From positions 1,364,001 to 1,428,000 of the forward strand of contig NC_018002.1 in assembly GCF_000265295.1 (NCBI RefSeq): a stretch of DNA of 64,000 nucleotides. The letters run 5' to 3'. This DNA is from Sulfurospirillum barnesii SES-3. GTDB lineage: Bacteria > Campylobacterota > Campylobacteria > Campylobacterales > Sulfurospirillaceae. The notes beneath the pieces are model-generated. The model was not told the DNA's origin and ran no database searches. It saw only the letters and a program-made list of their open reading frames with translations. A program made the position numbers and the translations under genes. Shown here in pieces: positions 2,249-64,000 of this stretch; positions within the stretch are counted from its first letter, which is position 1, and the number at the start of each line of letters is the position of its first letter.

Positions 2249-2308
2249 GTCTTTACATGTAAAAAAATCTATGCTACTATTGGGTATCAATTTCCAAGGC
2301 AAACATGC

Positions 2309-3088: not shown

Positions 3089-3186
3089 ACTCTTTACATG
3101 TAAAACACTTTCAAGCACGCATTAATCAAGCTTTTACCCCCATTTTTGTATAATCGCTCAAAAATTTACATAAGGCGCACAGACTC

Positions 3187-7076: not shown

Positions 7077-7113
7077 CATTTATCCTTCACATTTACATGT
7101 AAAAAGGAAAATG
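7077..7113 (+). promoter_or_regulatory. candidate ribosome-site-sequestering hairpin (riboswitch expression platform)
   Basis: CATTTATCCTT (7077-7087) can pair, with one bulged base, with AAGGAAAATG (7104-7113), which is the Shine-Dalgarno sequence plus start codon of the TRAP gene. The loop holds a TTTACATGTAAA palindrome. The pairing is seen directly; its role as the expression platform is inferred. Confidence 0.45.
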
Positions 7114-8163: not shown

Positions 8164-8186
8164 AATCCTTACATGTAAGGATTCTA
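8161..8186. terminator. 26-base perfect palindrome shared by two convergent stop codons
   Basis: TAGAATCCTTACA followed by its exact reverse complement. Its first three bases are the TAG stop of the plus-strand TRAP gene and its last three are the TAG stop of the minus-strand mogA. The centre is TACATGTA. It could act as a bidirectional hairpin, although a U-tract is missing. Confidence 0.6.
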
Positions 8187-10024: not shown

Positions 10025-10903
10025 TTATAAGGTCTTCATTATAGTTTTTTTTCGCTTATAGCGTTCTTCCATCGAGATATTACCCAAAAGACCGCCTTGG
10101 TGGAGGTAAATGGGGTCTCCTTGAAGTGTGGGTAAATGCTCTAAAAAAACACTCCATCCCACGGGGTCATAGACCAAATCAAACTCCACACCCATTTCTG
10201 TCTTTAATTTTTCCCATAATACATACAATTCTATGTATAATTTTCCATAATGGTACTTCTTGGAACCTTCCAAAATTCTAGGATAACAACGCAAAGAAGG
10301 CTCAACCATTTCCCACTGCTGTTGTAAATAAGCACTATTGCCAACGGTGTTACATGTAAAGATGGGAAAAGGCAAATGCTTTTGCAAAAAAAGTGCGGTG
10401 GTTCCAGTACCCGAGGGTAAAAAAAGGTAAGGCTCTTTGAGTCCTGCTTGATAGACATCGGCTTTGAGTTCCTCGGCTAAGCGTTGCATACCTTCTTCCG
10501 CCTCTCTTTGCCGTCCCCCTTCACTTACATGTAAACTGTGCTCATCGAGATATTCAAGCACGGTATCTTCACGAGCATGTGACTCAATCACCCTCATACC
10601 ATTCTCCAAAGCCGCTTGATAGTTGCCTATGGGATTCTCTTTTAAAAACGAAGGGATATGGTCGCACACATAGAAAAATTCCCAATTTTTGAGACGAGCT
10701 AAAACGGAGAGCGAATACATAGCATTGGATTGGTTGGAGCCTGAGCTTACAATGCGTTTAATATGAGGGAAATCATGCGTTAAAAAATAGTGAAACTTTC
10801 GTGCTTTATTGCCTGAAAAATCAGGATGCAAAAGGTCATCACGTTTGAGGTAGAAGGTACGGTTATGAAAAAAGTGTGATTCAAAAATGGAAGGAGAAAA
10901 CAT
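10025..10903 (-). CDS. PLP-dependent D-cysteine desulfhydrase / ACC deaminase family protein
   Basis: Tryptophan-synthase-beta fold PLP enzyme. The lysine is K33 in DFSGNKARKF, preceded by YLKRDDLL, and SSGSNQSNAM plus LPSGTGTTALFL form the phosphate-binding loops. I start it at the ATG at 10903 (292 residues). An in-frame TTG at 10945 would place the start inside the fba terminator hairpin and adds residues unlike the family. The true substrate (D-cysteine, ACC or another small amine) cannot be read from the sequence. Two TACATGTA copies lie inside the gene (10351, 10526). Confidence 0.8.
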   Translation of the reverse strand: MFSPSIFESHFFHNRTFYLKRDDLLHPDFSGNKARKFHYFLTHDFPHIKRIVSSGSNQSNAMYSLSVLARLKNWEFFYVCDHIPSFLKENPIGNYQAALENGMRVIESHAREDTVLEYLDEHSLHVSEGGRQREAEEGMQRLAEELKADVYQAGLKEPYLFLPSGTGTTALFLQKHLPFPIFTCNTVGNSAYLQQQWEMVEPSLRCYPRILEGSKKYHYGKLYIELYVLWEKLKTEMGVEFDLVYDPVGWSVFLEHLPTLQGDPIYLHQGGLLGNISMEERYKRKKTIMKTL

Positions 10904-10921
10904 GTTTACATGTAACGTAAA

Positions 10922-10943: not shown

Positions 10944-10950
10944 AAAAAGA

Positions 10951-14161: not shown

Positions 14162-15454
14162 TTATTCCTTCAATGTATTAATCAACGCTTCAACCACCTG
14201 TGCAGTCTGGTAAACCGACGCTATGTCACACTCTTCTCTTAGCGAATGAGGGTAACGAATAGTAGGACCTATAGAAACCGCTTCAATCTTTTTTTTCTGA
14301 TGGGCAATAAGCTCCCCACACTCCAATCCTGCATGAATCGCTTTAAAAGGCGCATAAGGATAAAAATCTTTCATGCTTTCTTGAACTTTTTTAGCAAACA
14401 GACTAACCTCAGGCTTCCAAGCGCCATGCCATCCCTCTTGAGCTACTTCAAATCCTAAAGCATGAAAAAATGCTTGAGTTTCGTTGGCAAGTATAGCCAA
14501 ATTTTCATCATCCATGGCACGCAAAGCACAATCCAAACGCAGGGTATTTCTCTCTTGAGAAAGTACTCCTAAATTGATACTGATAGAGGGAATATCAAGC
14601 GCTCTATCCCACTCTCGAACACCCTGTGCAAACGCACCCAATGTTTTTATAATGCATGTAGATTGTTCTATATACGTTGTGTACGTGTGCTTTTCTACGC
14701 TCTTTACATGTAAGCGTGAATCCTTTACATGTAAAGGAGTTTTTGTTGCCACAATTGCCCATGCACTCTTTGCAATGGCATTGCGCCTCTGTCCACCCTC
14801 TAGTGCAATCAGATACAAATCTTCATGCGCTAAAAGCTCATAGCCTAATGCTTTAATGGCTGAGGGTATTTTTTTATCAATATCCACGCCCGAATGTCCA
14901 CCCATAAAATCAAATGCAGAAATTTCATAGATTAAATGCTCTTTTTCAAGGGGTGAAAAATTTAGTTTCATAGAAGCGATGACATCCACACCTCCTGCAC
15001 ACCCAATGTAAATTTCTCCCGCTTCTTCGGCATCAAGATTAAGCAAATACGCAGCTTTTAAAGGCATGGTAAACTGCATGGCTCCAATAAGCCCTACCTC
15101 TTCATCTGCCGTAAACAAACATTCTAAATTATCATGATGTTGCATTGCCCAAAACATGATTGCCATGCCCATGCCATTATCTGCACCCAGTGTTGAGTTT
15201 TTAGCTTTTAAAAGTCCGTGTTCCTCAACAATTTCAATACGTTCAACCTCGCCGATACAGACCATATCATAATGAGATTGTAAGCAAATATGGGGCACTC
15301 CTTTTTGACACAAAACATTTCCAACTTCATCTTCTTGCACTTCAAATCCACACGTTAATGCAAATGCCTCAATGTACTCCCTCATTTGCGTAGTATGAAA
15401 ACTACACCGAGGAATTGCCGTAATAGCTCTAAAATGCTCTAAAATCTGCTCCAT
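14162..15454 (-). CDS. pepD: Xaa-His dipeptidase (aminoacyl-histidine dipeptidase), M20 family
   Basis: Cytosolic metallo-peptidase splitting dipeptides with C-terminal histidine and others. Zinc-site blocks: LQSHYDMVC, LGADNGMGMA, FTADEEVGLIGA, LLNLDAEEAGEIYIGCAGG, and HAGLECGEL near the C-terminus. I prefer the ATG at 15454 (430 residues) because AAGGG lies just upstream. The ATG at 15478 has no ribosome site and sits right after a TATAAT-like hexamer. Two TTTACATGTAA palindromes 21 bases apart (14705 and 14726) each encode Leu-His-Val-Lys in a linker-like stretch. Confidence 0.92.
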   Translation of the reverse strand: MEQILEHFRAITAIPRCSFHTTQMREYIEAFALTCGFEVQEDEVGNVLCQKGVPHICLQSHYDMVCIGEVERIEIVEEHGLLKAKNSTLGADNGMGMAIMFWAMQHHDNLECLFTADEEVGLIGAMQFTMPLKAAYLLNLDAEEAGEIYIGCAGGVDVIASMKLNFSPLEKEHLIYEISAFDFMGGHSGVDIDKKIPSAIKALGYELLAHEDLYLIALEGGQRRNAIAKSAWAIVATKTPLHVKDSRLHVKSVEKHTYTTYIEQSTCIIKTLGAFAQGVREWDRALDIPSISINLGVLSQERNTLRLDCALRAMDDENLAILANETQAFFHALGFEVAQEGWHGAWKPEVSLFAKKVQESMKDFYPYAPFKAIHAGLECGELIAHQKKKIEAVSIGPTIRYPHSLREECDIASVYQTAQVVEALINTLKE

Positions 15455-15499
15455 AACAACCCTTGAAAATTTAATCATTGAAATGCTATTATAGCTACC

Positions 15500-15737: not shown

Positions 15738-16637
15738 ATGCCTTTAAACACCCTTCGACAAGAACGCTTAAACTGGCTTCAATGGAAAGATATTGCACCG
15801 ATGCGTGAGGCGCTGCAAACACTGCCTTCCCCAAAAAATATCACCATAACGCTTGAAAATTGTATCAGTATTCATTCTTTACATGTAAACGAATGGGAAA
15901 GAGAGATAATTCATAACTGTGCCTTAGCGCTTCGTCCGTGGAGGAAAGGTCCTTTTGAGCTCTTTGGCACCTTTATTGACACAGAGTGGCAGAGTTTCAT
16001 CAAATACAACCTCTTAGAACCGTATTTTAATTTGGAAGGAAAAGTGGTTGGCGATATTGGCTGTAATAATGGCTATTATCTTTTTCGTATGCTGAAACAA
16101 AACCCTAAAAAGCTTGTAGGATTTGATCCTTCTGCTTTGTATAAAACTCAGTTTGATTTTATCAACCATTTGATTCAAAGCGATATTGTCTATGAAATGT
16201 TAGGGGTGGAGCACTTACCTCTGTATGAACATAAGTTTGATACCCTCTTTTGCTTAGGTGTGCTCTATCATCGAAGTGACCCTATTGCAACCCTAAAAGC
16301 ACTCTATCAAGGGCTCAATCCTGAAGGAGAGCTTATCTTAGATACCTTTATGATTGATGGCGATACCCCCGTGGCACTGTGCCCATCAAAAACCTACTCT
16401 AAAATTCCTAATGTTTACTTTGTACCAACCATTCCAGCCCTTATCAATTGGCTAGAACGTGCAAAATTTAGAGAGATAGAAGTTTTAGAAATCAAAAAAA
16501 CCGATGCGAATGAACAACGAAAAACAGAGTGGATTTATGGGGAGAGTTTAGAAAACTTTTTAGATGCCTCCAACCCAGAACTCACCATAGAGGGGTTTCC
16601 TGCCCCTAAACGCGTTTACATTAAAGCAAAACGATAA
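15738..16637 (+). CDS. cmoB: tRNA U34 carboxymethyltransferase
   Basis: Transfers the carboxymethyl group of carboxy-SAM to 5-hydroxyuridine at the tRNA wobble position (cmo5U). The SAM-type Rossmann motif is [14 protein letters not shown]. Family blocks [32 protein letters not shown] and [11 protein letters not shown] are also present. 299 residues against about 320 usual. Its partner cmoA is in the same window at 36991-37695. Confidence 0.93.
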
Positions 16638-19865: not shown

Positions 19866-20796
19866 ACGTTCAAAGTATATATTATGGGTAGAAGATTATC
19901 TCTTCTACCCAACATCTTTCTTTCAAACGTTCCTTTCATACCTTCTCTTGCCCCTAAGCCTGATTTATTGTGGTGTTGTCTTATGGAAACGCTATAAAGG
20001 TGAAAAAGAACAAAAATCTTTTGGTATTCCTATTATCAGTATTGGAAATTTGACCGTTGGAGGCAATGGAAAAACACCCTTTAGTATTGCTTTAGCAAAA
20101 GAGTATACGGACATAGGTATTATTCTTCGAGGCTATGGGCGTAAGTCCAAAGGACTCATTTTAGTTTCACAACGTGGGCAAGTCTTGTGTGATGTTATGG
20201 CGAGTGGTGATGAAGCTATGCTCTATGCCAAATCCCTACCTCATGCGACTGTTATCGTGAGTGAAGACCGTATAGAAGCCATTCGTTTTGCTAAAAAAAA
20301 TGGTGTTAAACTCATTTTTTTAGATGATGGTTTTTCAAAAAGCAGTATTGCAAAAATAGATATTTTAATGCGCCCCAACCCAGAGCCTAAAAACATGTTT
20401 TGTCTACCAAGTGGGCCTTACAGGGAGCCTCATTTTTTATATAAACGAGCTGATTTAGTCATTGTAGAAGATGAAGATTTTACACGCCATGTTGAAGTGT
20501 TCAATCCAACATCTCGCATGCTTTTGGTGACTGCCATTTCAAAACCAAGCCGATTGGATGCCTATTTACCCAATAATATTATTGGAAAAGTCACTTTTGA
20601 AGATCATTACATGTACACCGAAGAAGAGCTTATAAATCTTTTGGAAACCCATCGTGCAAGCTCTATTTTAACCACACAAAAAGATGCTGTTAAAATGTCA
20701 CATTTTTGTGTTCCTCTTTCTCTTTTAAACCTTGAAATTGAAATTTCAGAGCACACACGAGCAAATATCAACACTCTTTTAGCTCATATAAGCTAA
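19858..20796 (+). CDS. lpxK: tetraacyldisaccharide 4'-kinase
   Basis: Phosphorylates the 4' position of the lipid A precursor at the inner membrane. One N-terminal membrane helix (SYLLLPLSLIYCGVVL), then the P-loop GNLTVGGNGKTPF and the downstream block FLDDGFSKS. I place the start at the GTG at 19858, just before WVEDYLFYPTSFFQ, the typical LpxK N-terminus. It overlaps the DegT-like stop by eight bases. Longer in-frame starts (from GTG 19804) would add 18 residues buried in the upstream gene. About 312 residues, normal length. Confidence 0.88.
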   Translation: MFKRSKYILWVEDYLFYPTSFFQTFLSYLLLPLSLIYCGVVLWKRYKGEKEQKSFGIPIISIGNLTVGGNGKTPFSIALAKEYTDIGIILRGYGRKSKGLILVSQRGQVLCDVMASGDEAMLYAKSLPHATVIVSEDRIEAIRFAKKNGVKLIFLDDGFSKSSIAKIDILMRPNPEPKNMFCLPSGPYREPHFLYKRADLVIVEDEDFTRHVEVFNPTSRMLLVTAISKPSRLDAYLPNNIIGKVTFEDHYMYTEEELINLLETHRASSILTTQKDAVKMSHFCVPLSLLNLEIEISEHTRANINTLLAHIS

Positions 20797-21683: not shown

Positions 21684-21690
21684 GGAAAGC

Positions 21691-23178
21691 ATGATGTTTA
21701 TTGAAACCCGTGGAAACGATGGAAAAAAATCACAAAAAGTCCCCTTCTCCTATGCTATTTTAAATCCTAGTGCTAGCTTTGGTGGACTTTATGTACCTGA
21801 GAACTTACCTAACATTGATACTGACTTTTTAGAAAAAGCTTCCAAGAAAAGCTATAAAGAGATTACGCTGGATATTTTAAGACTCTTCAACATTGACATT
21901 GAAGAAGAGGTCATGCAAAAAGCGGTTGCCTTGTATGATGCATTTGATGATGCTACTGAGCCAACACCTTTGGTTCAAATCGAAGACGACCTTTTTGTCA
22001 ATGAACTCTACCACGGTCCTACACGTGCTTTTAAAGATATGGCCTTACAACCGTTTGGGTATATTCTTTCACACCTTGCACAAAAGCTAGGTGAGCAGTA
22101 TCTCATTTTGGCGGCAACCAGCGGTGACACGGGACCTGCAACGCTGGATACCTTTGCCAATAAGCCAAACATCAAAGTGGTTTGCCTTTATCCCGATGGG
22201 GGAACCAGTGATGTTCAACGCTTACAGATGACCACACAAAAGAGTCCAAACCTTAAAATTATCGGTATTCATGGCAATTTTGATGATGCCCAAAATGCGC
22301 TCAAAAACCTGCTTGCATCGCCTAGTTTCAAAGAAGCACTCAGTGCTAAAGATATTAAACTCAGTGCAGCAAACTCGGTCAATTTTGGACGTATTATTTT
22401 TCAAATTATCTACCATATCTATGCCTATGTCGCCCTTCTTAAACAAGGCAAGGTTGCGCTTGGAAAACCTTTTTACACCATTATTCCTAGTGGCAATTTT
22501 GGAAATGCCTTAGGGGCGTATTATGCGAAAAAGATGGGCTTACCCATTCAGAAAATTTTGATTGCTTCTAACATCAACAATATTTTAACCGATCTGATTA
22601 GCACAGGTGTTTATGACTTGCGAAGCCGAACACTTTTACAGACCACCTCTCCTGCGATGGATATTCTCATTTCCTCCAACGTAGAACGTGTTTTGTTTGA
22701 CAAATTTGGAGCAGAACGTACGAAAGAGCTGATGGAAGCACTGAAAGAAGATAAACTCTATACACTCACACAAAAAGAATTAGCGTGCATACAAGACGAT
22801 TTTGAGGCGGTTTATTGCGATGATACCTTTGGCAAAGAGCAAATTAAGCACTATGCCAACAAAGGCTACATTATGGACCCGCATACGGCAACGTGTCTTA
22901 AAGCCTACAAAGAGCTTAAAATAAAACCACTTCCGTGTGTTCTATGCTCAACAGCTGAGTGGACAAAATTTGCGCCAACGATGTTGAATGCTATCAAAGA
23001 AGACAGTGTCACATACAGCGATAAAGAAGCACTTGAAGGTATCAGCAACGCTTTACATGTAAAGATTCCTGAGTGCATTCGTGCCTTATTTAATGAAGCC
23101 ATTATTCACGATAGCGTGGTTAAAAAAGAGAAGATTGAAGCAGAAATTTTTGACTTTTTAAACAAGGTTAAGCCATGA
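21691..23178 (+). CDS. thrC: threonine synthase
   Basis: PLP enzyme converting O-phosphohomoserine to threonine. The lysine is in HGPTRAFKDMAL; further blocks are AATSGDTGPATLD, NSVNFGRI and PSGNFGNALGAYYAKKMG. About 495 residues, the long ThrC form. The ATG at 21691 has an AAGGAAAG site; an upstream frame start at 21655 would lie inside argB. The end overlaps the kdsB start by four bases. Confidence 0.95.
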   Translation: MMFIETRGNDGKKSQKVPFSYAILNPSASFGGLYVPENLPNIDTDFLEKASKKSYKEITLDILRLFNIDIEEEVMQKAVALYDAFDDATEPTPLVQIEDDLFVNELYHGPTRAFKDMALQPFGYILSHLAQKLGEQYLILAATSGDTGPATLDTFANKPNIKVVCLYPDGGTSDVQRLQMTTQKSPNLKIIGIHGNFDDAQNALKNLLASPSFKEALSAKDIKLSAANSVNFGRIIFQIIYHIYAYVALLKQGKVALGKPFYTIIPSGNFGNALGAYYAKKMGLPIQKILIASNINNILTDLISTGVYDLRSRTLLQTTSPAMDILISSNVERVLFDKFGAERTKELMEALKEDKLYTLTQKELACIQDDFEAVYCDDTFGKEQIKHYANKGYIMDPHTATCLKAYKELKIKPLPCVLCSTAEWTKFAPTMLNAIKEDSVTYSDKEALEGISNALHVKIPECIRALFNEAIIHDSVVKKEKIEAEIFDFLNKVKP

Positions 23179-23909: not shown

Positions 23910-24204
23910 AGATAGCTACTGGTTCAAACGTATTATTTTCATGACTGAAACGATACGCTTCCATTGGATTTTCTCCCACTTGAAACATAATCTTACATGT
24001 AAGGAATCCTGATTTTTTAAGCCCTTTTTCGACCACTTCTAAAATAAACGCACGGGTACTAAAAAGATGCGTCGTGGTATCACCCTCATAGGCAAATTCT
24101 TCTTCTTCGATAGGCGTAAAACCCTCTTTTTTCAAATGTTTTTCAAAAATAACCTTATCTTTTAGACCCTCAACCTCTACAATTAAAACTACATGCATTG
24201 CCAC
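23908..24204 (-). CDS. conserved hypothetical small protein (98 aa)
   Basis: No family recognised. GTG start with an AGGAG site nine bases upstream. The sequence is alpha/beta-like with an acidic EEEEF stretch and a central FLTCK encoded by a TCTTACATGTAAGG palindrome copy. No signal peptide or membrane helix. It follows dsbD by only a few bases on the same strand, so it may be co-transcribed with it. Confidence 0.65.
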   Translation of the reverse strand: MAMHVVLIVEVEGLKDKVIFEKHLKKEGFTPIEEEEFAYEGDTTTHLFSTRAFILEVVEKGLKKSGFLTCKIMFQVGENPMEAYRFSHENNTFEPVAI

Positions 24205-25963: not shown

Positions 25964-26060
25964 CCTTTTTGAAGAAATAAAGTGATTGTATCCAACGAGC
26001 CTAAATATTTTTTAAATTAAAACGATTTTCACACATTACATGTAAAAAGGGCATTCATCT

Positions 26061-26942: not shown

Positions 26943-26960
26943 AGCTTTACATGTAAAGGT

Positions 26961-31737: not shown

Positions 31738-31812
31738 GCAATAAGAACTTAGAAAGCACAAAAAGGTTACATGTAAAAACGTGAGAAAAAATTTTGAGTG
31801 ATTTTTAAAACG

Positions 31813-32331: not shown

Positions 32332-32509
32332 TATATATAAAAAATAACAATTTAGTGTTTTTTTATACGATTATAATTCATAAAACTTATTTATCTGTTA
32401 CTTTTATACGTTTTTCTGTATAATTTTAGACATAAAAATTATTAAAAATAGAGTAATTACTCAAAAAAGATTAAAGAAAAACAATTAAAAATGATTTACA
32501 TGTAAAGAA

Positions 32510-35675: not shown

Positions 35676-36701
35676 ATGAATTACAAACTACACCACCTCT
35701 CACACACTGATTTAGATGGCTATGGCTGTCAAATGGTAAGTGCCCATTTTTTTGATTCGATTAGCTTTTATAACTCTAATTATGGCAAAGAAATTAACGA
35801 ATGTTTTAATCAAATTTTAGCCCAAATTCAAACTTCTTCCCTTGAAAAACATGTGATTCTTATTACGGATTTGAATTTAACGATGGAGCAAGCCACGGAG
35901 TTTCAAGCCAAAGTCAATATTGCGGAAAAAGAAATACTCCTCCTCCTTTTAGACCATCATAAAACAGGAGAAGAATGTGCTAATACTTATGAATGGTATT
36001 ACCTAGACTCTAACCGCTGTGCAACGAAAATTACCTATGACTTTTTTAGCGCATTGTATGGTCACAATGAAGCCTTATCTCGCTTTGTTAATGTGGTCAA
36101 TGCCGTCGATATTTGGTTAGAAAATGAACCAGAATTTGAATTAGGAAAAGTGTGTATGGGACTGGTAAGTGGGGCTAAAGAGGTCAATAAAGTGATGTTT
36201 CCTGAAGAAAATACCCAATATATCTTTTCACTTCTTTCACAAGCGCAAGAATACTTTACATGTAACGATGCACACATCGCTTTGGATGATGCCATTCATG
36301 GGATAAAAAAGAATTATTTTAAAACGACAACCAACAATACCCTAAGCAATCTCATCTCTGCGTATAATGTTATTCTCCTTAGCAAGAACAAAGAAAAAAT
36401 GCAGATTAGCTACAAAGAGTATAAGGGCATTCTCACCTACAATATTGGTAATGTTTCTGTTATTGGCAACGACTTTCTAAGTGCCAATCCTGATTTTGAT
36501 TTTTTCATGGATGTAACCTCTAAAAAGACGATTAGTTTACGTTCAAATGGCGCTGTTGATGTCAGTAAAATCGCTGCGCAAATTGCCAATGGAGGCGGAC
36601 ATCATAATGCCAGTGGTGGACTTCTCAGCAACTTCAAAGACGCTTTTATCTATGATAGTATCAAATCTCAAGTGATGACTATCATCGCTAACAAAGGATA
36701 A
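35676..36701 (+). CDS. DHH-family phosphoesterase
   Basis: 341 residues. The DHH domain has HTDLDGYG (H10, D12, D14), LITDLN and LLDHHKTG. The C-terminal DHHA1 domain has GGGHHNASGG. This arrangement is that of RecJ-like/NrnA-like phosphoesterases acting on nanoRNA, pAp or cyclic dinucleotides; the substrate cannot be chosen from sequence. AAGGA site. Followed after three bases by a small acidic protein gene. Confidence 0.85.
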   Translation: MNYKLHHLSHTDLDGYGCQMVSAHFFDSISFYNSNYGKEINECFNQILAQIQTSSLEKHVILITDLNLTMEQATEFQAKVNIAEKEILLLLLDHHKTGEECANTYEWYYLDSNRCATKITYDFFSALYGHNEALSRFVNVVNAVDIWLENEPEFELGKVCMGLVSGAKEVNKVMFPEENTQYIFSLLSQAQEYFTCNDAHIALDDAIHGIKKNYFKTTTNNTLSNLISAYNVILLSKNKEKMQISYKEYKGILTYNIGNVSVIGNDFLSANPDFDFFMDVTSKKTISLRSNGAVDVSKIAAQIANGGGHHNASGGLLSNFKDAFIYDSIKSQVMTIIANKG

Positions 36702-37004: not shown

Positions 37005-37695
37005 CTAAAAATGTCGCAAAATTTCCCCATTTAAAAATCGTTTCAATGGTTGTAAAACCTACACTTTTAAGCATCGCTTTGTTTTCCTCTTCGGTATAAG
37101 GAATCAACACGTTTTCCAGCGCTTCTCTTTTTTGTGCAATCTCAAAATCACTGTATCCTTGCGTACGTTTAAACGCATAATACAAATCAATCATCTCTTT
37201 ATTGAGTACCTTGTCGTCAAAGACAATTTTTTCACTAAAGATAAAAAGACCATCAGGGTTGAGTGCATCATAAATTTTACGCACAAAATCGCCCCGTTGC
37301 AACGGGCGAATAAACTGAAGCATATAATTAGCAATAATCACATCTTTATTTTGCAAATGCACTTGTGTAATATCTGCTTCTTGAAGCGCTATTGTTGCCC
37401 CATAAGCGTGTATCTTTTGAGCAGCAATGCGTAACATCGCCTCAGCATTATCAATGCCTAAAAGATGGTAACTTTTGTTCATTTTATGCAGGGCTAAAAG
37501 GGTATTGGCGGTTGAGCATCCAAGATCAACCACATGTGCACCTTCCTTTACATGTAAACAAATCATTTTACATGTAAGTTCTAAAACCTCTTTGTAAAAA
37601 GGGATAGAACGCTCAAGCATGTCATCAAAAACAATGGCAACATCTTCATCAAATTCAAACTGTTTGGTAATAGGTTTGGTAAATACTTTATCCAT
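36991..37695 (-). CDS. cmoA: carboxy-S-adenosyl-L-methionine synthase
   Basis: Makes carboxy-SAM from SAM and prephenate for CmoB, which lies at 15738-16637 in the same window. SAM-fold motif VVDLGCSTANTLLAL; also DDMLERSIPFYKEV, IANYMLQFI and KWGNFATFLAKK. I begin at the ATG at 37695, overlapping the ribF stop by eight bases, which gives the family start MDKVFTKPI. Two TACATGTA copies 20 bases apart (37549, 37569) encode Leu-His-Val-Lys and Leu-Thr-Cys-Lys. Confidence 0.93.
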   Translation of the reverse strand: MDKVFTKPITKQFEFDEDVAIVFDDMLERSIPFYKEVLELTCKMICLHVKEGAHVVDLGCSTANTLLALHKMNKSYHLLGIDNAEAMLRIAAQKIHAYGATIALQEADITQVHLQNKDVIIANYMLQFIRPLQRGDFVRKIYDALNPDGLFIFSEKIVFDDKVLNKEMIDLYYAFKRTQGYSDFEIAQKREALENVLIPYTEEENKAMLKSVGFTTIETIFKWGNFATFLAKKG

Positions 37696-38528: not shown

Positions 38529-41935
<3,407 letters not shown>

Positions 41936-42516: not shown

Positions 42517-43659
42517 CTAAAAAGTAGAATTAAGCGCACGAAGCACGCTGAGGGCTTGAACATGCTCATAAACATCATGCGCACGTATCACAGAAGCACC
42601 ATGCTCGTATGCTTTTAAATGCAGCGCTAAAGTGCCTGCCAAACGTTTTTCAATCGGTGCTGGGTAAATCGTATCAATCATAGATTTTCGACTCGCTCCT
42701 ACAAGTAAAGGATAGCCAAAATGTAAAAAATGCTCATGATGCTTGAGTAATTGCAAATTGTGCTCTAAGGTTTTACCAAATCCAATGCCCACATCCAAGA
42801 TAAGGTTATGAATACCAAAAGCATGCGCTTTTTCAATACGTTCTTGAAAAAAAGCATCGACGTCAAGGATGACATTGTCATACAGGGGTGCTTTTTGCAT
42901 GGATGAGGGTGCTCCTTGCATATGCATTAAAACGACCGTTGCTTTGTATTTTGAAGCCACTCGAGCAACGGCATCATTTGCAAGCGCTGTAATGTCATTA
43001 ACAATCTCAAAACCATGAGAAAGCGCATACTCTAAACACAAAGGAGAGTAGCTATCCAGAGAGAATTTAGCTTTACATGTAAGCTTGTTTTGTGCAATGA
43101 GATCAACAATGGGGACAATGCGCAAAAGCTCTTCTTCCTCGCTGATAGCAAGGCTTCCAGGACGGCTTGAAACGCCCCCTAAATCAATAATACCTGCACC
43201 CTCATCTATCATCTTTTCAATGCGGTGCAATGCGCTTTTCCCATTAAAACGGCTTCCTTGAAAAAAGCTATCTTCATTGGCATTAATAACACCCATGACG
43301 GTAAAATCATCTTTACATGTAAACGAAAATTGACTCAGTGTTTGGGCTAACGCTTTTAGTCCAAATGGCTGTGCTTTTTCTTTAAAACTGAGTTCTTTTA
43401 ACTGTTTATCATTGGCGATTAAAAGCGCATCCACCAAAGGTTTTTTACATGTAATGGTCTCTTTGGGTACTGCCAAATCTGCCCCAATAGAAAGAGCATC
43501 TTGCTTTAAAATATTCGCAGCAGGACTTTTTAAATCTTTAATATAAATAAAATTTAAATGCGCCTTTTGTTTTAAAATCGCTATACCCTCTTTTGTCACA
43601 CCTAGGGATTGAAATAAAGAGAGAACATCTGTGGTCGATGAGAGTTTATAACACTTCAC
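42517..43659 (-). CDS. folP: dihydropteroate synthase, long form
   Basis: Joins p-aminobenzoate to pterin in folate synthesis. Core TIM-barrel blocks: VMGVINANEDSFFQGS, IIDLGGVSSRPGS, FSLDSYSPLCL, VLMHMQGAPSSMQ, LDVGIGFGKTLEHN and LVGASRKS. 380 residues: an extra ~105-residue N-terminal region precedes the barrel, also found in Helicobacter. Three TACATGTA palindromes (43074, 43314, 43446), all encoding Thr-Cys-Lys, make it the densest gene for that motif. Confidence 0.93.
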   Translation of the reverse strand: MKCYKLSSTTDVLSLFQSLGVTKEGIAILKQKAHLNFIYIKDLKSPAANILKQDALSIGADLAVPKETITCKKPLVDALLIANDKQLKELSFKEKAQPFGLKALAQTLSQFSFTCKDDFTVMGVINANEDSFFQGSRFNGKSALHRIEKMIDEGAGIIDLGGVSSRPGSLAISEEEELLRIVPIVDLIAQNKLTCKAKFSLDSYSPLCLEYALSHGFEIVNDITALANDAVARVASKYKATVVLMHMQGAPSSMQKAPLYDNVILDVDAFFQERIEKAHAFGIHNLILDVGIGFGKTLEHNLQLLKHHEHFLHFGYPLLVGASRKSMIDTIYPAPIEKRLAGTLALHLKAYEHGASVIRAHDVYEHVQALSVLRALNSTF

Positions 43660-46498: not shown

Positions 46499-46574
46499 AA
46501 TTGCACATTACCTCTATATTTTTGTTACAATGGTAACGAAAAAGTCATTAAACTTGCTTGATACAAGGAAATCC

Positions 46575-47630
46575 GTGCTCGCTTATTTGCATATCCCCTT
46601 TTGCGATAGTAAATGCCATTACTGCGCTTTTAACTCTTACACAAATCAAAATGCTTTAAAACAAACCTATATGAAAAGCATCACCAAACAGCTTGCCTTT
46701 ACGTTGGAAAAATTTCAGCTTAAACCAGCAGAAATCACTTCACTCTTCATAGGAGGAGGAACGCCCTCAACCATCCATGCCTCATGGTATGCACCTTTCT
46801 TTGAAATGCTTTCTCCTTATTTCAGTGCAGATGTTGAAATTACCTCTGAAGCCAATCCTCACTCAGCCAGTAAAGCATGGCTGCAAGAGATGAAAAGCTT
46901 AGGACTCAACCGTCTTAGTTTTGGGGTTCAAAGTTTTAATGAAAAAAAGCTTCATTTTCTAGGGCGTAATCACTCACCAAAACATGCACAAGAGGCTATT
47001 ACACAAGCTTATGAGCTTGGGATTTCAAACATTTCACTGGATCTTATTTATGGTACAGCATTCGATACCTTAAGCCTCTTAAATGAAGATTTACAGCGTG
47101 CAAAACATCTCCCTATCAATCATTTGAGTGCTTATGCCTTAACCCTTGAAGAAGACACCCCTTTTTACACCCAAAAAAATGTGACGAACCGTTCGGAAAA
47201 ACTTGCCAAAAAGTTTGTACGTGAGATTATTGATGCAGGATTTCCTCAGTATGAAATTTCAAATTTTGGGACCTATCAAAGCAAACACAATAAAGGATAT
47301 TGGGAGCAACAAGATTATCTGGGTATTGGGGCAGGTGCTGTGGGATTTTTTAAAAATAAACGTTTTTATCCTTCTAAAAATATAGAAACGTACATTCAAA
47401 ATCCACTTTTTGCAGAGGTGGAAGACTTAAGTTTTGAAGATTTACATGTAGAGATGATTTTTTTAGGACTTAGAAGTATTATTGGCATAGCATTGGAGCA
47501 TTTTAGCCCCAAAGAACAAGAAAGGGTCATGCTTTTGCTCAAAGAAAAAAAGCTTACATGTAAAGAAAATAGAGTCTATAATAATGACTATTTTTTAAGC
47601 GATGAAATAGCGTTATTTATCACTCAATAA
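46575..47630 (+). CDS. hemW: HemW-like radical SAM protein
   Basis: Radical SAM protein with the cluster motif C-x3-C-x2-C in HIPFCDSKCHYCAFNSY, GGGTPSTI, SFGVQSFNEKKL and SLDLIYGTAFDT. This branch is HemW (haem chaperone), often misnamed oxygen-independent coproporphyrinogen oxidase; it lacks the extra features of HemN. I use the GTG at 46575 because AAGGAA lies directly upstream and the family begins YxHIPFC. The ATG at 46530 has no ribosome site. The C-terminal 18 bases overlap the convergent kefB. Confidence 0.88.
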   Translation: MLAYLHIPFCDSKCHYCAFNSYTNQNALKQTYMKSITKQLAFTLEKFQLKPAEITSLFIGGGTPSTIHASWYAPFFEMLSPYFSADVEITSEANPHSASKAWLQEMKSLGLNRLSFGVQSFNEKKLHFLGRNHSPKHAQEAITQAYELGISNISLDLIYGTAFDTLSLLNEDLQRAKHLPINHLSAYALTLEEDTPFYTQKNVTNRSEKLAKKFVREIIDAGFPQYEISNFGTYQSKHNKGYWEQQDYLGIGAGAVGFFKNKRFYPSKNIETYIQNPLFAEVEDLSFEDLHVEMIFLGLRSIIGIALEHFSPKEQERVMLLLKEKKLTCKENRVYNNDYFLSDEIALFITQ

Positions 47631-49235
47631 CGCTTCATCCTCTTCCATCGCAACTTTCAAAAGAGCTTTAGCTGCCTCTCTTCCTTCATTTACAATATGT
47701 TTTACATGTAAAGATTTAAGAAGCTTCTTTTCATCATAATCACTGGCTTTTGCCACAATTTTAATAGGCGCATTAAACGATTTTAAAATCTCACAGAGTA
47801 AAATTAATTTTTTCTCGTTATTGATCGCAATAATAACCGCTTTGGCATTTTCTACAAAAGCATTTTTCAATATCGTTTTTTCTGCGGCATTTCCAAAATA
47901 AACAGGCTCACCCCTGCTTTGCCCAAGCTTTACGAGATTAATATCATGCTCTAAAACCAAATAATTCACGTTCATCTTTTTCAAACGGTAGACAATCTCT
48001 TGCCCCAATTTTCCATACCCACACACAATAATATGATCTTTAATGCCAGAAGAATGAATCATAAAATCACCATTATTGGGCTCTTGACTCATCGCATCCA
48101 CGATTTTTTTCATATTTTTTAAAATAAACGGTGTCATCACCATAGAAATCACGACCGTTACAATCAAAATTTGTGACACCGTTGGGCTGATTAAGTGACT
48201 GGAACTTGCAAGGGCTAAAATAGCTAACGTGAACTCACCTCCTTGACACAATGCCAACCCCGTTTTAAGAGCAACCCTACCACCCACAGAAAAGAAGAGT
48301 ATGCCAAACACAACCAATGTTTTAAACACCATCATGAGAGCCAAAGAAAATAAAATCATCCCATAATTTTGTGCTATCAAGTTAAAATCAATTTGCATAC
48401 CAACGGTGATAAAAAAGAGCCCCAATAACAAGTCACGAAACGGAACCAAATCGGCTTCAATTTGATGTTTGTATTGGCTTTCTGACATCATCATGCCTGC
48501 TAAAAAAGCACCCAGTGAGTAGGAAAATCCTAACATATGCGCTAAAAAAGAGGCACCTACGACAAACAAAAGCACCGCCGCAATAAAAATTTCCTCCGTA
48601 TCCGCCCACACCACCAAAGATAAAAAACGATTCAGTACGTATTTAGCAATTAAAAACATGAGTCCTAAAATAATAACAACACTGTAAAATGTCTGCAATA
48701 AAAGGGTAGAAAGTGAACTTTCTTGATTAGAAAAAATATTAATCATTAACAAAATAGGAATAACCGCTATATCTTGAAAGAGTAAAATACCCAAAGCTTT
48801 GCGACCATAAACGGTATGAATCATACCCCTATCATTAAAAATCTTAAGCACAATAGCAGTAGAAGAAAGAGCAAGCGCATACCCAATAATAATGGCACTT
48901 TTTTTCTCAATTCCAAAAAGAAATTCCGCACTTAATGCGATGACACCGCCCACGAGGCATACTTGTAAAAGCCCATAGAAAAAAACATCTTTTTTCATTG
49001 CCATAAGATGCTTGATAGAAAACTCTAAACCAATCGTAAACATTAAAAATACAATCCCAAATTCAGCAACATGAGTTAAAGAGTCATTATTACGACCTAA
49101 TTCAAAGAGATAGGCAATCGCAAAGCCTGTAAAAATATACCCAATAATAGTTGGAATATTAAAACGCTTTAATAAAATATTTAAAAAAGTAGCAATGGCT
49201 GTTGCACTCAGAATTATGGTCAATAAATTATCCAA
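47613..49235 (-). CDS. kefB: cation:proton antiporter with TrkA-N domain (KefB type)
   Basis: About 12-13 membrane helices (residues ~5-385, CPA2 family; FGIVFLMFTIGLEFS and LALCQGGEFTLAIL), followed by a cytosolic NAD-binding RCK domain with HIIVCGYGKLGQEIV (GxGxxG). 540 residues. Exchanges K+ or Na+ for protons. It follows hspR by two bases, the same order as in C. jejuni. Confidence 0.9.
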   Translation of the reverse strand: MDNLLTIILSATAIATFLNILLKRFNIPTIIGYIFTGFAIAYLFELGRNNDSLTHVAEFGIVFLMFTIGLEFSIKHLMAMKKDVFFYGLLQVCLVGGVIALSAEFLFGIEKKSAIIIGYALALSSTAIVLKIFNDRGMIHTVYGRKALGILLFQDIAVIPILLMINIFSNQESSLSTLLLQTFYSVVIILGLMFLIAKYVLNRFLSLVVWADTEEIFIAAVLLFVVGASFLAHMLGFSYSLGAFLAGMMMSESQYKHQIEADLVPFRDLLLGLFFITVGMQIDFNLIAQNYGMILFSLALMMVFKTLVVFGILFFSVGGRVALKTGLALCQGGEFTLAILALASSSHLISPTVSQILIVTVVISMVMTPFILKNMKKIVDAMSQEPNNGDFMIHSSGIKDHIIVCGYGKLGQEIVYRLKKMNVNYLVLEHDINLVKLGQSRGEPVYFGNAAEKTILKNAFVENAKAVIIAINNEKKLILLCEILKSFNAPIKIVAKASDYDEKKLLKSLHVKHIVNEGREAAKALLKVAMEEDEALLSDK

Positions 49236-50678: not shown

Positions 50679-52097
50679 ATGAATAAGATTATTTCCCTCT
50701 CTCTTTTTACAGCGCTCTCTTTGTTTGGGGCAAGTGTTACTTTAGAGCAAATGCCACAAGACTCACAGCGTATTGATGCCACAACGTCCAATGTTATTAT
50801 CTCTTATCACAACGCAATTAAAGAGAGTAAAAAGAGTGTTGTCAACATTGCAACCACGAAAAAAACAAAACAAAATGAACAGCTCAACGAACTCATGCAA
50901 AATCCATTCTTTAAAGAGTTTTTTGGTAACCGTATGCCTGAGTTTAGGCAACAAGAGCGTAAATCACACTCCCTAGGTTCTGGTGTGATTATCTCCAAAG
51001 ATGGCTACATTGTCACCAATAATCATGTGGTTGAAGGCGCTGATGAAATTGTGATTACGCTCCCAAATGATGAAAAAGAGTATAAAGCAAAAGTGATTGG
51101 AGAAGACCCAAAAACAGACCTTGCTGTGGTTAAAATTGATGCTACAAATTTACATGTAGCAAAATTTGGAGACTCTTCAAATCTGCTTGAGGGTGATTTA
51201 GTTTTTGCGATTGGTAACCCTTTTGGTGTAGGAGAAACCATTACACAAGGGATTATTTCAGCGCTAAATAAAAGCAATGTAGGGCTGAATCAATACGAAA
51301 ATTTTATTCAAACGGATGCTTCTATTAACCCTGGTAATTCTGGTGGGGCTCTGGTTGATAGCCGTGGTGCCTTAATTGGAATCAACAGCGCCATTCTCTC
51401 CAGAAGTGGTGGCAATAATGGCATTGGCTTTGCAATTCCTTCCAATATGGTACAAAAAATAGCAAGCAGTCTCATTGAAAATGGAAAAGTTGAGCGTGGT
51501 TTTATGGGTGTTTCGATTGCCGATTTAACCAAAGATCTGAAAGAACTGTATGACAACAAACAAGGTGCAGTTATTTTGATGATTGAGAAAAACTCACCTG
51601 CGGAAAAAGGAGGACTTCAAGTCTCAGACCTTATTCTTGAAGTAGATGGTGTTAAAATTAAAAATGCCAACGAACTCAAAAATACAATTGCGGCTATTAC
51701 GCCTGATAAGAGTGTTAACATTACATACGAACGTGATAAAAAAATTAAAAACACCAAAATAAAACTGGCAAAAATGGATTCAGAAATCCTAACCAGTAGT
51801 GACGGTAAAAGCACATCAAGCTCTATTGAGGGATTAAGTCTTGTGGAAATCAATGCCCAAACAAGGAAACAATACCAGCTTTCAAAAGAGAGTGAGGGTC
51901 TTTTGGTAACAGAGGTCAAAGAGGATTCTAAAGCTGAAAAAATAGGCTTTAGACAAGGGGATGTCATTATTCAAATTGAACAAATGCGTATCAGTTCTCT
52001 TCATGATTTCACGAATGCACTTAAAGAGTACAAAAACAGTAAAAAACGTGTCATCATCAATCGTCAAAATTATCGATCCATCCTTGTAATGCCTTAA
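50679..52097 (+). CDS. htrA: periplasmic serine protease/chaperone HtrA (DegP/DegQ)
   Basis: 472 residues: signal peptide (~18), trypsin-like domain with the triad H116 (TNNHVVEG), D147 (DPKTDLAVV) and S221 (GNSGGAL), then two PDZ domains (~265-365 and ~375-470). Degrades or refolds misfolded envelope proteins. A TTACATGTAGC palindrome at 51151 encodes LHV at 158-160, where the family commonly has a proline in place of His. Divergent from cbpA; cprRS follows. Confidence 0.95.
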   Translation: MNKIISLSLFTALSLFGASVTLEQMPQDSQRIDATTSNVIISYHNAIKESKKSVVNIATTKKTKQNEQLNELMQNPFFKEFFGNRMPEFRQQERKSHSLGSGVIISKDGYIVTNNHVVEGADEIVITLPNDEKEYKAKVIGEDPKTDLAVVKIDATNLHVAKFGDSSNLLEGDLVFAIGNPFGVGETITQGIISALNKSNVGLNQYENFIQTDASINPGNSGGALVDSRGALIGINSAILSRSGGNNGIGFAIPSNMVQKIASSLIENGKVERGFMGVSIADLTKDLKELYDNKQGAVILMIEKNSPAEKGGLQVSDLILEVDGVKIKNANELKNTIAAITPDKSVNITYERDKKIKNTKIKLAKMDSEILTSSDGKSTSSSIEGLSLVEINAQTRKQYQLSKESEGLLVTEVKEDSKAEKIGFRQGDVIIQIEQMRISSLHDFTNALKEYKNSKKRVIINRQNYRSILVMP

Positions 52098-52123: not shown

Positions 52124-52159
52124 GTTATAATACAGTTACATGTAAGGAGTGTATAGGCA

Positions 52160-52840: not shown

Positions 52841-54072
52841 CTAAATCGTCTATTTTTTACAGCATTACCTTTATTTTTGCTACCAGTATTGTCAGTATTT
52901 TTTTAGCACTCCTTTTTTTATTAGAATACGACAAGCAAACGTATACTGAAAAGCTTAATACAAAGTATTCCATTATCTCTCGTGCAACCTTATTTCATCT
53001 TAATAATTTTATTACCAATGAAGAGCTCAAACGGCAAGTTCAGGGGTATCAAATGCGTGAAATTAGCGATAAAGAGCTAAAAAGTAGCATTATTGAAAAA
53101 GCGCAAATTATCCAAAAAATTGCTGATAAAATTGGAACGAGTGCAATTTTACGCTATGAAAACAGCCACTATTTGCATATTGAAACCAAATACTCATCCT
53201 TACTGCTTAAAGATGAAGACTTTCAGCCCTACCGTTATGACTTAATTAAAATTATTTTTGGTAGTGTTTTTGCAATTATTATTATTGCTTATATGCTTAC
53301 GATTCGAAAATTAAAACCCTTACGCAAACTCAAGCGGCAAATGGATCGTTTTGCCCAAGGGGATTTAAACATTGACTGTAAGGCAGATGGAGAAGATGAA
53401 ATATCTCAGGTGGCAAATTCATTTCATAATGCGGTAGAACAAATTAACAAACTCAATCACTCCAGACAACTTTTTTTACGAAATATTATGCATGAGCTTA
53501 AAACGCCTATTACCAAAGGGCGTATTAGTGCTGAAATGCTTGAAGAGAGTAAACAAAAAGAGCGTTTGATTTCAACCTTTGAAAAGTTAGAATTACTGAT
53601 TAATGAATTTGCTTCCATTGAACAAATCACCTCAGGTGAAGGACTTAAAAATATCAAGCCTTATCTCTTAGTAGATTTACTAGATGAAGCAATTGATCTT
53701 GCCATGATTTCACCCTCACAAGTTCACAATGAAATCATGGATGAAGAAATTATTTTACATGTAGACTTTCGGCTCTTTACAACTGCTATGAAAAATGTGA
53801 TTGACAATGGTATTAAATATTCAAACGACCAAAAAATAAAAATACTTGCAACACACTCTAAAATTTCCTTTATCAGTCAAGGAAAACCCCTTACAAGAGA
53901 GCTTTCACACTATTTAGAACCTTTTGTACAAGAAAAAAACTCCCACCAAAGTTTTGGGTTGGGTCTTTATATCGTCCATAATATTATAAAAGCTCATCAT
54001 ATTACTTTTACCTACGAACACAAAGAAGGATATAATTATTTTAGTTTTGAAAAAATAGAAACACTCATGTGA
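52837..54072 (+). CDS. cprS: sensor histidine kinase (CprS-like, ArsS family)
   Basis: 411 residues. Membrane helix ~9-30, short periplasmic sensor (~31-138), second helix ~138-156, HAMP-like linker (LRKLKRQMDRFAQGDLNI), H-box with H219 (RNIMHELKTPITKGR), then an ATPase domain with NVIDNGIKYS and GLGLYIVHNI. The start overlaps the cprR stop (ATGA), so the pair is translationally coupled. Confidence 0.88.
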   Translation: MTKSSIFYSITFIFATSIVSIFLALLFLLEYDKQTYTEKLNTKYSIISRATLFHLNNFITNEELKRQVQGYQMREISDKELKSSIIEKAQIIQKIADKIGTSAILRYENSHYLHIETKYSSLLLKDEDFQPYRYDLIKIIFGSVFAIIIIAYMLTIRKLKPLRKLKRQMDRFAQGDLNIDCKADGEDEISQVANSFHNAVEQINKLNHSRQLFLRNIMHELKTPITKGRISAEMLEESKQKERLISTFEKLELLINEFASIEQITSGEGLKNIKPYLLVDLLDEAIDLAMISPSQVHNEIMDEEIILHVDFRLFTTAMKNVIDNGIKYSNDQKIKILATHSKISFISQGKPLTRELSHYLEPFVQEKNSHQSFGLGLYIVHNIIKAHHITFTYEHKEGYNYFSFEKIETLM

Positions 54073-60337: not shown

Positions 60338-61675
60338 TTATTTTCCAAGACAAAAATTACTAAACATTTTATCTAAAATCTCATCTCTTTCAAATGCCAT
60401 AGAAATTGATGAGATAGCCATGATAGCATCATTAACATGAAAAGCAAACAATTCAAGTTCTCCTTCTCTTAAGAGAAGTGAAGCACTTTTAATATTCTCA
60501 TAGGCTTTTTGCACCGCATCCATTTGTCTTACAGATGTAAGTAAAAGAGTATCTTCATGCGCCGTTTCATCTAAAATTCTTTGCAAGGCATTCACAAGAG
60601 CTTGTGTATCTTGTTGACATACAAGCATCATAAAATCATTTCCTAAATAATCCACTTCAAACAGACGAGGGAGATCGGTTTTATTCAGAACTTTAAGAAT
60701 TTTTTTCTTTGAAGCATACGTATTTAAAAGATTCAAAATGACAGCATCTTCATCGTCATAGTGCTTACTATTATCAAACATTGCAATCACAATTTCTGAC
60801 TCTTCAATCGCCATAATAGAACGCTCAATACCAATTTTTTCGATGCTATCATGAGCTTCTCTAATACCTGCTGTATCGACAATTCTTACCAAATGTGTTC
60901 CGATGCGTAACTCTTCTTCTATCGTATCACGAGTCGTACCTGCAATGTCACTAATAATGGCTCTATCATAACTCAGAAGATGATTTAACAATGAGCTCTT
61001 CCCAACATTAGGCTTTCCAATAATCGCAATTTTAAAACCTTGAATAAGCCCTTGACGACGTTTACTACTCTCATATGTTTTTAAAAGCTCACTGGATAAA
61101 TACAGTAATTTTTCATTGATTTTTTCTATCATATCTAAGGGTAAATCTTCTTCAGCATAGTCAATATTGACTTCAACAAAAGCGAGAATTTCAACCAAAA
61201 GTTCTCTTACATGTAAAACAAAATTTTTTAGCTCACCTTTAAGCTGACGTGTCAACATTTTCGCCGCTTCAACGCTTTTTGTCTCAATTAATGCAGCAAT
61301 AGCTTCTGCTTCACTTAAGTCAATTCTGCCATTAAGAAATGCTCTTTTCGAAAATTCACCAGGATAAGCAAGTCTCGCACCATACTGTATTAAGGAATGT
61401 AAAACCATATTGGCAACAATGCTTCCACCATGGCACTGAAATTCGACAACATCCTCAGCTGTAAAACTATGAGGTGCTTTAAAATAGATAACAATAGCCT
61501 GATCAATAAGATCATTGGAGGGATCATACAAAAAACTCAGTGTCGCAACACGAGGTTCCAAGGTTTCCTTATGGGAAAGCTTTTGGGCAAGAGCAAAAGC
61601 ATTGGCACCACTTAAGCGTACAATCGCAATGGAGCCAATACCTGAACTAGTAGCAATAGCAGCAATAGTATCTAT
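60338..61675 (-). CDS. mnmE: tRNA modification GTPase MnmE, apparent AUA start
   Basis: With MnmG makes the wobble-uridine (c)mnm5 modification. Domains: N-terminal formyl-THF/dimer domain (DTIAAIATSSGIGSIAIVRLSG), G domain with GKPNVGKSSLLN and DTAGIREA, and C-terminal CLGK with the essential Cys. The conserved N-terminus is encoded, but the codon at the normal Met position is ATA (61675-61673), with AGGAAA six bases upstream and in-frame stops just before. The first ordinary start, TTG at 61561, would remove 38 conserved residues. With ATA it is 445 residues, normal length. Confidence 0.9.
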   Translation of the reverse strand: MDTIAAIATSSGIGSIAIVRLSGANAFALAQKLSHKETLEPRVATLSFLYDPSNDLIDQAIVIYFKAPHSFTAEDVVEFQCHGGSIVANMVLHSLIQYGARLAYPGEFSKRAFLNGRIDLSEAEAIAALIETKSVEAAKMLTRQLKGELKNFVLHVRELLVEILAFVEVNIDYAEEDLPLDMIEKINEKLLYLSSELLKTYESSKRRQGLIQGFKIAIIGKPNVGKSSLLNHLLSYDRAIISDIAGTTRDTIEEELRIGTHLVRIVDTAGIREAHDSIEKIGIERSIMAIEESEIVIAMFDNSKHYDDEDAVILNLLNTYASKKKILKVLNKTDLPRLFEVDYLGNDFMMLVCQQDTQALVNALQRILDETAHEDTLLLTSVRQMDAVQKAYENIKSASLLLREGELELFAFHVNDAIMAISSISMAFERDEILDKMFSNFCLGK

Positions 61676-62619: not shown

Positions 62620-64000
62620 TATTGAGCCTTTTCTTCTTTATGTTTTTTTGCAAAAAGTTTATTGACATAAAACTGCTGAACAATGGATGCTAAGTTATTT
62701 GTAAACCAATACAACGTAAGACCTGCTGGAAAAGTTACAAAGAAAAAAGTAAAAATCAACGGTAAAAACTTCATAATCTTTTCTTGCATTGGATCATTAA
62801 AGGTCGTTGGCGTGATCTTTTGATGGAAAAACATGGTAAGACCCATAAGCACAGGTAGAATAAAATAAGGATCCATGACCGCTAAATCATGTACCCATAA
62901 AATCCACTCTGCTCCCTTAAGTTCAATGGCATTTTGTAAAACACGGTACACAGCAAAGAAAACAGGGATTTGGAGTAAAATAGGTAAACATCCTCCCATA
63001 GGATTTGCACCATGCTTTTTATAAAGTTCCATCATATGCATATTGAGTTTTTGCTTATCATCACCGTATTTTTTCTGTAGCTCTTTAACTTTTGGTGCAA
63101 GTTCTTTAAGTTTGTTCATGGAGACCATACCCTTATACGTCAAAGGATACAACACCAACCGTACGATAATAGTCATTGCAACAATTGCCCAACCCCAGTT
63201 ACCAAAAATACCGTGTAAATAAGAAAGTAACGAAAAAAGTGGTTTTGCAATAAACGTAAAAAAGCCATACTCAACAACATCGGTTAATTCAGGTTCAATT
63301 GTTTTAAGCTTCCTATGCTCTTTTGGTCCGATATAGCCACTAAGTTTAAAATCATCCTGGCCCTTAGCAAATAAGAGAGGGTCACTGTTTTTACCAGGTA
63401 AAATAACTGTCTCAAGACCAGAATTTAGTTCATAGAAAAATGTTGTGTAATATTTATCAGCAGCAGCAATCAATCGTGCATTTGCAAAGCGTTCATCCCC
63501 TTTGGCATCACCATCACTGATAGTGTGAATCGTGCTATCTGCTTTTTTAATTAACGCACCATGAAACGTGTAACTGTCCACAGCTGCATTGGGTCTAAAA
63601 CCAGGAGAAATAAAATAATCTTTAGCATTTGAAAGCTTTACATGTAAATCATATTTACCCGATGGAAAGAACGTAATTGTTTTAGTGAGTGTTACATCTG
63701 CTAAGTGTTGTGTTAGCACAAGAGCACTACCATTTTCAGTTACATCAACATTTGGTTTATCTGAAGTATAAGACATTACAAAAGCATCAGCATTAACTTT
63801 TTTGTCACTAAAACGAATTTCTAAAGGCAATACACCTTGTGAACCATCAATGAGTTGTATTCGATCACCATGGTCATCTTGATATTTTGATTCACCCAGA
63901 TAAAATTTTGCAATTCTTCCTAAACGATCAATCTTTACCTCATAATCAGGAGCTTTTATCGTAGCGATAATTTCATGCTCAGATCCAGACGCTACGGTTG
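62619..64000 (-). CDS. yidC: membrane protein insertase YidC, 5' end beyond window
   Basis: Inserts proteins into the inner membrane, alone or with Sec. The visible part has most of the periplasmic domain and the five-helix core: YLHGIFGNWGWAIVAMTIIVRLVLYPL with the conserved hydrophilic-groove Arg, PVFFAVYRVLQNAIEL and FPAGLTLYWFTNNL. The frame runs open to the window edge; the true start and first membrane helix lie outside. One TTTACATGTAAA copy at 63637. Confidence 0.95.
   Translation of the reverse strand, partial: TVASGSEHEIIATIKAPDYEVKIDRLGRIAKFYLGESKYQDDHGDRIQLIDGSQGVLPLEIRFSDKKVNADAFVMSYTSDKPNVDVTENGSALVLTQHLADVTLTKTITFFPSGKYDLHVKLSNAKDYFISPGFRPNAAVDSYTFHGALIKKADSTIHTISDGDAKGDERFANARLIAAADKYYTTFFYELNSGLETVILPGKNSDPLLFAKGQDDFKLSGYIGPKEHRKLKTIEPELTDVVEYGFFTFIAKPLFSLLSYLHGIFGNWGWAIVAMTIIVRLVLYPLTYKGMVSMNKLKELAPKVKELQKKYGDDKQKLNMHMMELYKKHGANPMGGCLPILLQIPVFFAVYRVLQNAIELKGAEWILWVHDLAVMDPYFILPVLMGLTMFFHQKITPTTFNDPMQEKIMKFLPLIFTFFFVTFPAGLTLYWFTNNLASIVQQFYVNKLFAKKHKEEKAQ

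Follow-up and report, generated by a model that had tools for sequence, protein, structure and literature searches.

The octamer TACATGTA is a palindromic (mirror-symmetric) word that is iterated throughout the genome of Sulfurospirillum barnesii SES-3 (G000; relatives are likewise denoted by G numbers), and the data support its maintenance at the DNA level, independent of the proteins that many of its copies encode. It is probably a mark for DNA self-recognition and not anything the proteins need. Our leading reading, to which we give a probability of roughly 0.45, is that Sulfurospirillum-type Campylobacterota use this highly iterated palindrome as a self-recognition word, which may act in transformation.

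In the 64-kb window (the whole stretch of DNA analysed), 36 copies of TACATGTA were found against 0.73 expected, and the maximum in 100 shuffles was 4. The whole genome (2,510,109 bp, one contig) held 1427 copies compared with 29 of the reversed word, an excess of ~50-fold over expectation; order-2 and order-3 Markov expectations were exceeded 30- to 50-fold (statistics were based on samples of 120–264 kb plus whole-genome counts). By our own gene model, 26 window copies lay in genes and 10 in intergenic DNA, which makes up ~4% of the window. The sites are listed below, with the peptide encoded by each in-gene copy.

50679..52097, + strand, gene for an HtrA/DegP-like serine protease (Pfam Trypsin_2 and PDZ; PDB matches to HtrA/DegP), carrying the next copy
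51151..51158, in htrA, TTA CAT GTA read as LHV (NLHVAKFGDSS)
573..580, metY-like gene 2-868 (+ strand), LHV
2254..2261, intergenic
3095..3102, intergenic
4500..4507, gene 3187-5817, TC; KC in G002, G005, G003 and G009
7094..7101, intergenic
8170..8177, intergenic between convergent genes, at the midpoint of a longer inverted repeat
10351..10358, gene 10025-10945, TC
10526..10533, gene 10025-10945, LHV
10907..10914, gene 10025-10945, LHV
14705..14712, gene 14162-15478, LHV
14726..14733, gene 14162-15478, LHV
15880..15887, gene 15738-16637, LHV; SQI in G009
20608..20615, gene 19804-20796, YMY; sole window site kept also in G009
23054..23061, gene 21655-23178, LHV
23994..24001, gene 23908-24204, TC; ESC in most word-less orthologues
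26037..26044, intergenic
26948..26955, intergenic
31768..31775, intergenic
32497..32504, intergenic
36257..36264, gene 35676-36701, TC
37549..37556, gene 36991-37719, LHV
37569..37576, gene 36991-37719, TC
39021..39028, gene 38529-39245, LHV
39815..39822, NAD-dependent DNA ligase gene 39242-41188, LHV; LHV (LHVKDL) kept elsewhere by other codons
43074..43081, pterin-binding enzyme gene 42517-43659, TC
43314..43321, gene 42517-43659, TC
43446..43453, gene 42517-43659, TC; peptide retained with other codons too
47443..47450, gene 46530-47630, LHV
47555..47562, gene 46530-47630, TC
47703..47710, gene 47613-49235, LHV; LQV, LEV or LDV where the word is absent
52137..52144, intergenic
53756..53763, histidine kinase gene 52837-54072, LHV; peptide (LHVDFRLF) kept elsewhere by other codons
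58992..58999, intergenic
61208..61215, gene 60338-61561, LHV; GHV or EHV in word-poor relatives
63639..63646, gene 62619-end, LHV

CATG forms the exact centre of the word, and 31 of the 36 window copies extend to TTACATGTAA. The extended consensus in Sulfurospirillum is roughly AANCTTTACATGTAAAGNTT, with a palindromic core and symmetric flanks. Single-mismatch versions were depleted in ~260-kb samples of word-rich genomes (59 observed vs 125 expected in G000, 59 vs 117 in G002 and 60 vs 97 in G005; ratio 0.47–0.62), where perfect copies numbered 159, 143 and 168, respectively; the word-poor control G009 gave 110 vs 139. Mismatches at positions 1/8 were also scarce (11 observed vs 28.8 expected). 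Density was 7–8 times higher in non-coding DNA (3.0–3.6/kb) than in genes (0.4–0.5/kb), with the maximum between convergent genes (7.6/kb) and the minimum between divergent genes (1.5/kb). No covariation of left and right flanks was detected among non-coding and convergent copies, which excludes hairpin terminators as a general account of TACATGTA; single cases, such as the copy at 8170, are hairpins.

Across 264 kb of the genome, the in-gene copies were read as LHV (63), TC (41) or YMY (7), and 48 lay outside genes, giving densities of 0.44/kb in genes and 3.6/kb outside. For the window, the preliminary description had counted 25 in-gene copies (15 LHV, 9 TC, 1 YMY); ours (26; 16, 9 and 1) agrees except for one copy, probably owing to a gene cut by a window end. 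The fixed peptides that it reported were indeed seen, but any palindrome of 8 bp is bound to give such a set when translated in its three frames. The TAA stop to which it pointed accounts for the rarity of the YMY frame: in 71% of the YMY copies (264 kb) the base after TACATGTA had shifted from A, which makes the stop, to C, while the 8-bp core was exact. The core is therefore the conserved unit, and coding demands are accommodated in the flank. LHV and TC are by-products of the word, which fixes the codons wherever it lies in a gene and the amino acids at many of these sites.

Maintenance of the DNA word itself, for which selection had been suggested, was supported when syntenic stretches from relatives were retrieved and orthologous codons aligned site by site. 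Word-rich relatives (79–84% protein identity) retained the exact word at 69–89% of in-gene sites (in the larger sample, 70/79 for G000-G005, 66/82 for G000-G002 and 62/90 for G005-G002), compared with 6/82 for G000-G009 and 5/98 for G005-G009. The background codon identity product in word-rich pairs was 0.03–0.06 for TTA CAT GTA and 0.16–0.28 for ACA TGT; retention between word-rich species was thus 3- to 30-fold over background. At the aligned in-gene sites of the window, the word was kept at 21/25 in G002, 20/25 in G001, 17/23 in G005 and 1/23 in G009. G009 kept the peptide at 7 of these 23 sites and had replaced TACATGTA by both synonymous and non-synonymous changes. The loss of the word is not explained by divergence, since the proteins of G005 and G009 share 87% identity.

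We compared residue identity between G009 and G005 at sites where G009 had lost the word. Identity was below background for His (0.55 vs 0.82, P=4e-6), Cys (0.58 vs 0.94, P=2e-9), Thr (0.52 vs 0.80, P=2e-4), Leu (0.79 vs 0.93, P=1e-3) and Val (0.70 vs 0.80, P=0.05), and adjoining residues were ordinarily conserved (0.83). The effect was weaker with G000 as the reference (His P=0.02, Cys P=8e-5). The word therefore sets the residue at many sites. A strict dependence, with LHV and TC appearing only where the word is present, did not hold, because G009 kept the peptide by other codons at 16/53 lost LHV sites and 12/33 lost TC sites; the dependence is supported on average and is not general. The suggestion that the word overrides family residues at a cost to the protein stands as far as residues are set at many sites; words settling at protein-tolerant positions would give the same pattern, and the two accounts fit the data alike.

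The two proteins offered as examples of this override differed in strength. At the htrA site the exact word was present in G016, G015, G001, G013, G018, G023, G010, G014 and G022, and genomes without it encoded LQV (G005-G009 and G017) or LNV (G002). Distant homologues among the PDB matches had NLPT, NLSA or NLPA at this position (presumably H. pylori, C. jejuni and AlgW, judging from the PDB entries). In MetY, where G005 has DPLHV, G009 DPLHT and G002 DALHI, the family sequence is AYHN/PYHD as had been indicated, but its His is conserved, making the example weaker than claimed: His is ancestral, and Leu and Val are the additions of the word.

TACATGTA was above control in all 24 genomes of the genus, mostly at 1000–1700 copies, with word-poor members G009 (109), G022 (270) and G017 (342). 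Other genera of the family were mostly word-rich, G059 being an exception, and the remaining families of the order were at background apart from one, f17, taken to be Sulfurimonas-type from locus L293. Enrichment was patchy between f17 congeners: G191, G143, G121 and G290 held 848, 611, 608 and 368 copies, respectively, and their congeners were at background, which suggests independent gain or loss and makes this group useful for tracing the gene responsible. The 8-bp core was the same everywhere, and the flanks were CTTTACATGTAAAG in Sulfurospirillum, CTTACATGTAAG in G121 and loose in G191. One-off words were not depleted in the word-rich G191 (ratio 1.16); therefore this signature is not universal. 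No alternate palindrome comparable to TACATGTA was found in 260 kb of G009; its strongest palindromic octamer, GCACGTGC (10 vs 1.9 expected in 260 kb), makes a weak candidate for a further such word. An apparent asymmetric motif in G145 was traced to a CRISPR-like array (contig C7 ~166138-168402; L355:6138-8402) whose 33 repeats, ATTACATGTAGACCCGATAAAAAGGGGATTGAAAC, all contain TACATGTA; without the array, density in G145 was 0.47/kb, with a CT-word flank. The Synechocystis CRISPR1 repeat, which contains a HIP1/CGATCG site, offers a parallel (PMC6604393).

TACATGTA shares several properties with the DNA uptake sequences of Neisseriaceae (DUS) and Pasteurellaceae (USS). Copies are on the scale of a thousand, perfect copies outnumber singly mismatched ones, flanks are graded and form lineage dialects around a conserved core (PMC3630211), and a stop codon in one frame limits placement in genes (PMC1626085, PMC3630211). 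TACATGTA differs in that its core is fully palindromic with symmetric flanks and shows no orientation, its convergent copies lack flank covariation, and its role in uptake is only putative. To our knowledge, the known DUS and USS are not palindromes. In Neisseria a pilin receptor, ComP, reads the DUS core. Judged by its one-off copies TACATGTA resembles an uptake sequence, although its symmetry and its extension to a 10-mer are HIP1-like.

Under the self-recognition reading, a sequence-specific protein would read TACATGTA, and copies carrying it would be favoured; the most likely process would be natural transformation, with uptake or recombination biased toward word-bearing DNA of kin. N6-adenine methylation at the central CATG, by the orphan methyltransferase described below, may be needed, by analogy with Campylobacter jejuni, in which CtsM acts in DNA uptake dependent on methylated RAATTY (PMC10046745). 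C. jejuni belongs to the same order, and the analogue here would be an orphan adenine methyltransferase that marks self DNA; RAATTY, however, is a short, ubiquitous motif, whereas TACATGTA is an iterated octamer. The massive exact enrichment, conservation far above that of codons and near-complete loss in a nested lineage argue for self-recognition, as do the depletion of one-off copies below perfect ones and a fixed core with lineage-specific flanks as in DUS dialects. We also counted in its favour the non-coding and convergent density, the central position of CATG, the kinship of the methyltransferase with enzymes partnered with ICEA/NlaIII-type nucleases, and the universality of ComEC, found in 36/36 genomes tested, word-poor ones included. 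The same universality excludes ComEC loss as the cause of word loss, and competence therefore does not discriminate word-rich from word-poor genomes. Counted against the reading are the palindromic form, unlike DUS/USS, the presence of ComEC in word-rich and word-poor genomes alike, the imperfect tracking of the word by the methyltransferase, and the one-off ratio of G191.

The foremost alternative, somewhat unlikely in our estimate, is a HIP1-like system of methylation without uptake, in which an orphan CATG adenine methyltransferase would mark the words, to be kept by repair that depends on methylation or by a chromosomal protein that reads the methyl mark. HIP1 (GCGATCGC) and alternate HIPs occur in cyanobacteria (PMC4390886). 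TACATGTA is likewise a palindromic oligomer grossly over-represented genome-wide, an octamer found once per ~1.5–1.8 kb (~1.1 kb for HIP1 in Synechocystis; PMC6604393). The palindrome extends to a 10-mer in 86% of its copies, compared with 88% in Synechocystis 6803. HIP1 also holds orphan methyltransferase sites (PMC4390886), and S. barnesii has an orphan methyltransferase whose predicted site falls within TACATGTA. This D12-class adenine methyltransferase gene (MethyltransfD12, ~324 aa; PADLOC MTase_II 4e-111) occupies G000:C1:2225021-2225992; its neighbours are a transglutaminase-like gene and a histidine kinase (names assigned by eye), and the retrieved stretch contained no nuclease gene. 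Its ~50% identical relatives in at least 10 Campylobacterota genomes adjoin ICEA (PF05315) nucleases, 14–100 bp apart, and an ICEA-like gene was found at 15/80 further loci. ICEA nucleases form an NlaIII-like, CATG-specific family; on this gene pairing the specificity of the orphan is predicted to be CATG. The gene was present in 17/24 genus genomes, and the 7 without it were poorer in words per Mb (P=0.013, no phylogenetic correction); in the ComEC tree, the word-poor G009+G017 and G021+G022 are sister pairs without it.

Several observations stand against the HIP1-like account. The orphan methyltransferase is neither necessary (G013, G018, G019, G110, G252, G143 and G290 are word-rich without it) nor sufficient (G059, G173 and many other families have it without enrichment), so that it was rejected as the sole driver; it is no more than a lead to the partner of the word. 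N6_N4_Mtase (PF01555), absent from most word-rich genomes, was also rejected as a driver. MutL (PF01119) was found in 0/22 genomes of both word-bearing families (control positive in 11/14), therefore the published MutS/MutL ratchet for HIP1 cannot act here as described; this absence would fit with MutL-type mismatch repair being generally missing from these Campylobacterota. In HIP1 genomes one-off copies are common, at end positions (PMC4390886), whereas those of TACATGTA are depleted, and not common at the ends. TACATGTA also differs from HIP1 in being A+T-rich and in occurring in another phylum.

Two side observations concern GATC and a plasmid. GATC was strongly depleted in G000 (664 vs 1751 expected, 264 kb) and G002 (650 vs 2016, 260 kb), much more weakly in G005 and G009, which suggests a history of GATC-targeting restriction in the G000/G002 branch. 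The S. diekertiae plasmid pSDCE1 (NZ_CP059996.1; 39.9 kb) has 14 words and 2 copies of the reversed control; on it, a Dam-like methyltransferase gene (L236:1692-2732), a 51% relative of the chromosomal orphan, holds 4 words; no TACATGTA was found inside the chromosomal methyltransferase genes examined.

Quite unlikely, in our judgement, is that TACATGTA is bound by an abundant protein of chromosome organisation, segregation or replication that needs dense sites genome-wide. The palindromic core with graded, lineage-specific flanks would fit a dimeric DNA-binding protein, and so would the near-random spacing (variation coefficient ~0.9–1.0) and the occurrence of words on plasmids too; such sites normally tolerate mismatches, however, and here near-misses are depleted, and the G009/G017 clade lost its words despite conserved synteny and proteins. 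Neutral mutational or compositional bias, or an avoided or relaxed restriction site, is very improbable: no support was found for it (ACATGT outside TACATGTA is slightly rare), the Markov models fail, one-mismatch neighbours are depleted, and the composition of G009 is similar. That LHV and TC are conserved protein motifs which the DNA word merely follows is refuted as a general explanation and has next to no probability, since, although other codons keep the peptide at 39815, 43446 and 53756, the same word occurs in three frames and most densely in non-coding DNA, and word-less G009 orthologues mostly change the residue (LHV kept 26%, TC 37%).

Returning to self-recognition, a stronger version, in which natural transformation in this MutL-less branch of Campylobacterota is driven by a palindromic, methylation-linked word that has dialects of its own and can rewrite residues throughout the proteome, is rather doubtful at present. 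No earlier report of TACATGTA was found in a literature search that covered part of the literature. Iterated words are well described as HIP1 in cyanobacteria and as DUS/USS in two proteobacterial families, and the reason for HIP1 is still open. The present word is a third, independent case, in Campylobacterota, and it separates rival theories by combining the lack of MutL with uptake-sequence strictness and HIP1-like symmetry. G009 and G017 are natural "knock-out" sister species for gene-by-gene comparison, and the orthologous sites allow a clean estimate of the extent to which constraint on DNA can determine protein sequence. If true, a methylation-linked self-recognition word would unite the phenomena of HIP and DUS within a single system.
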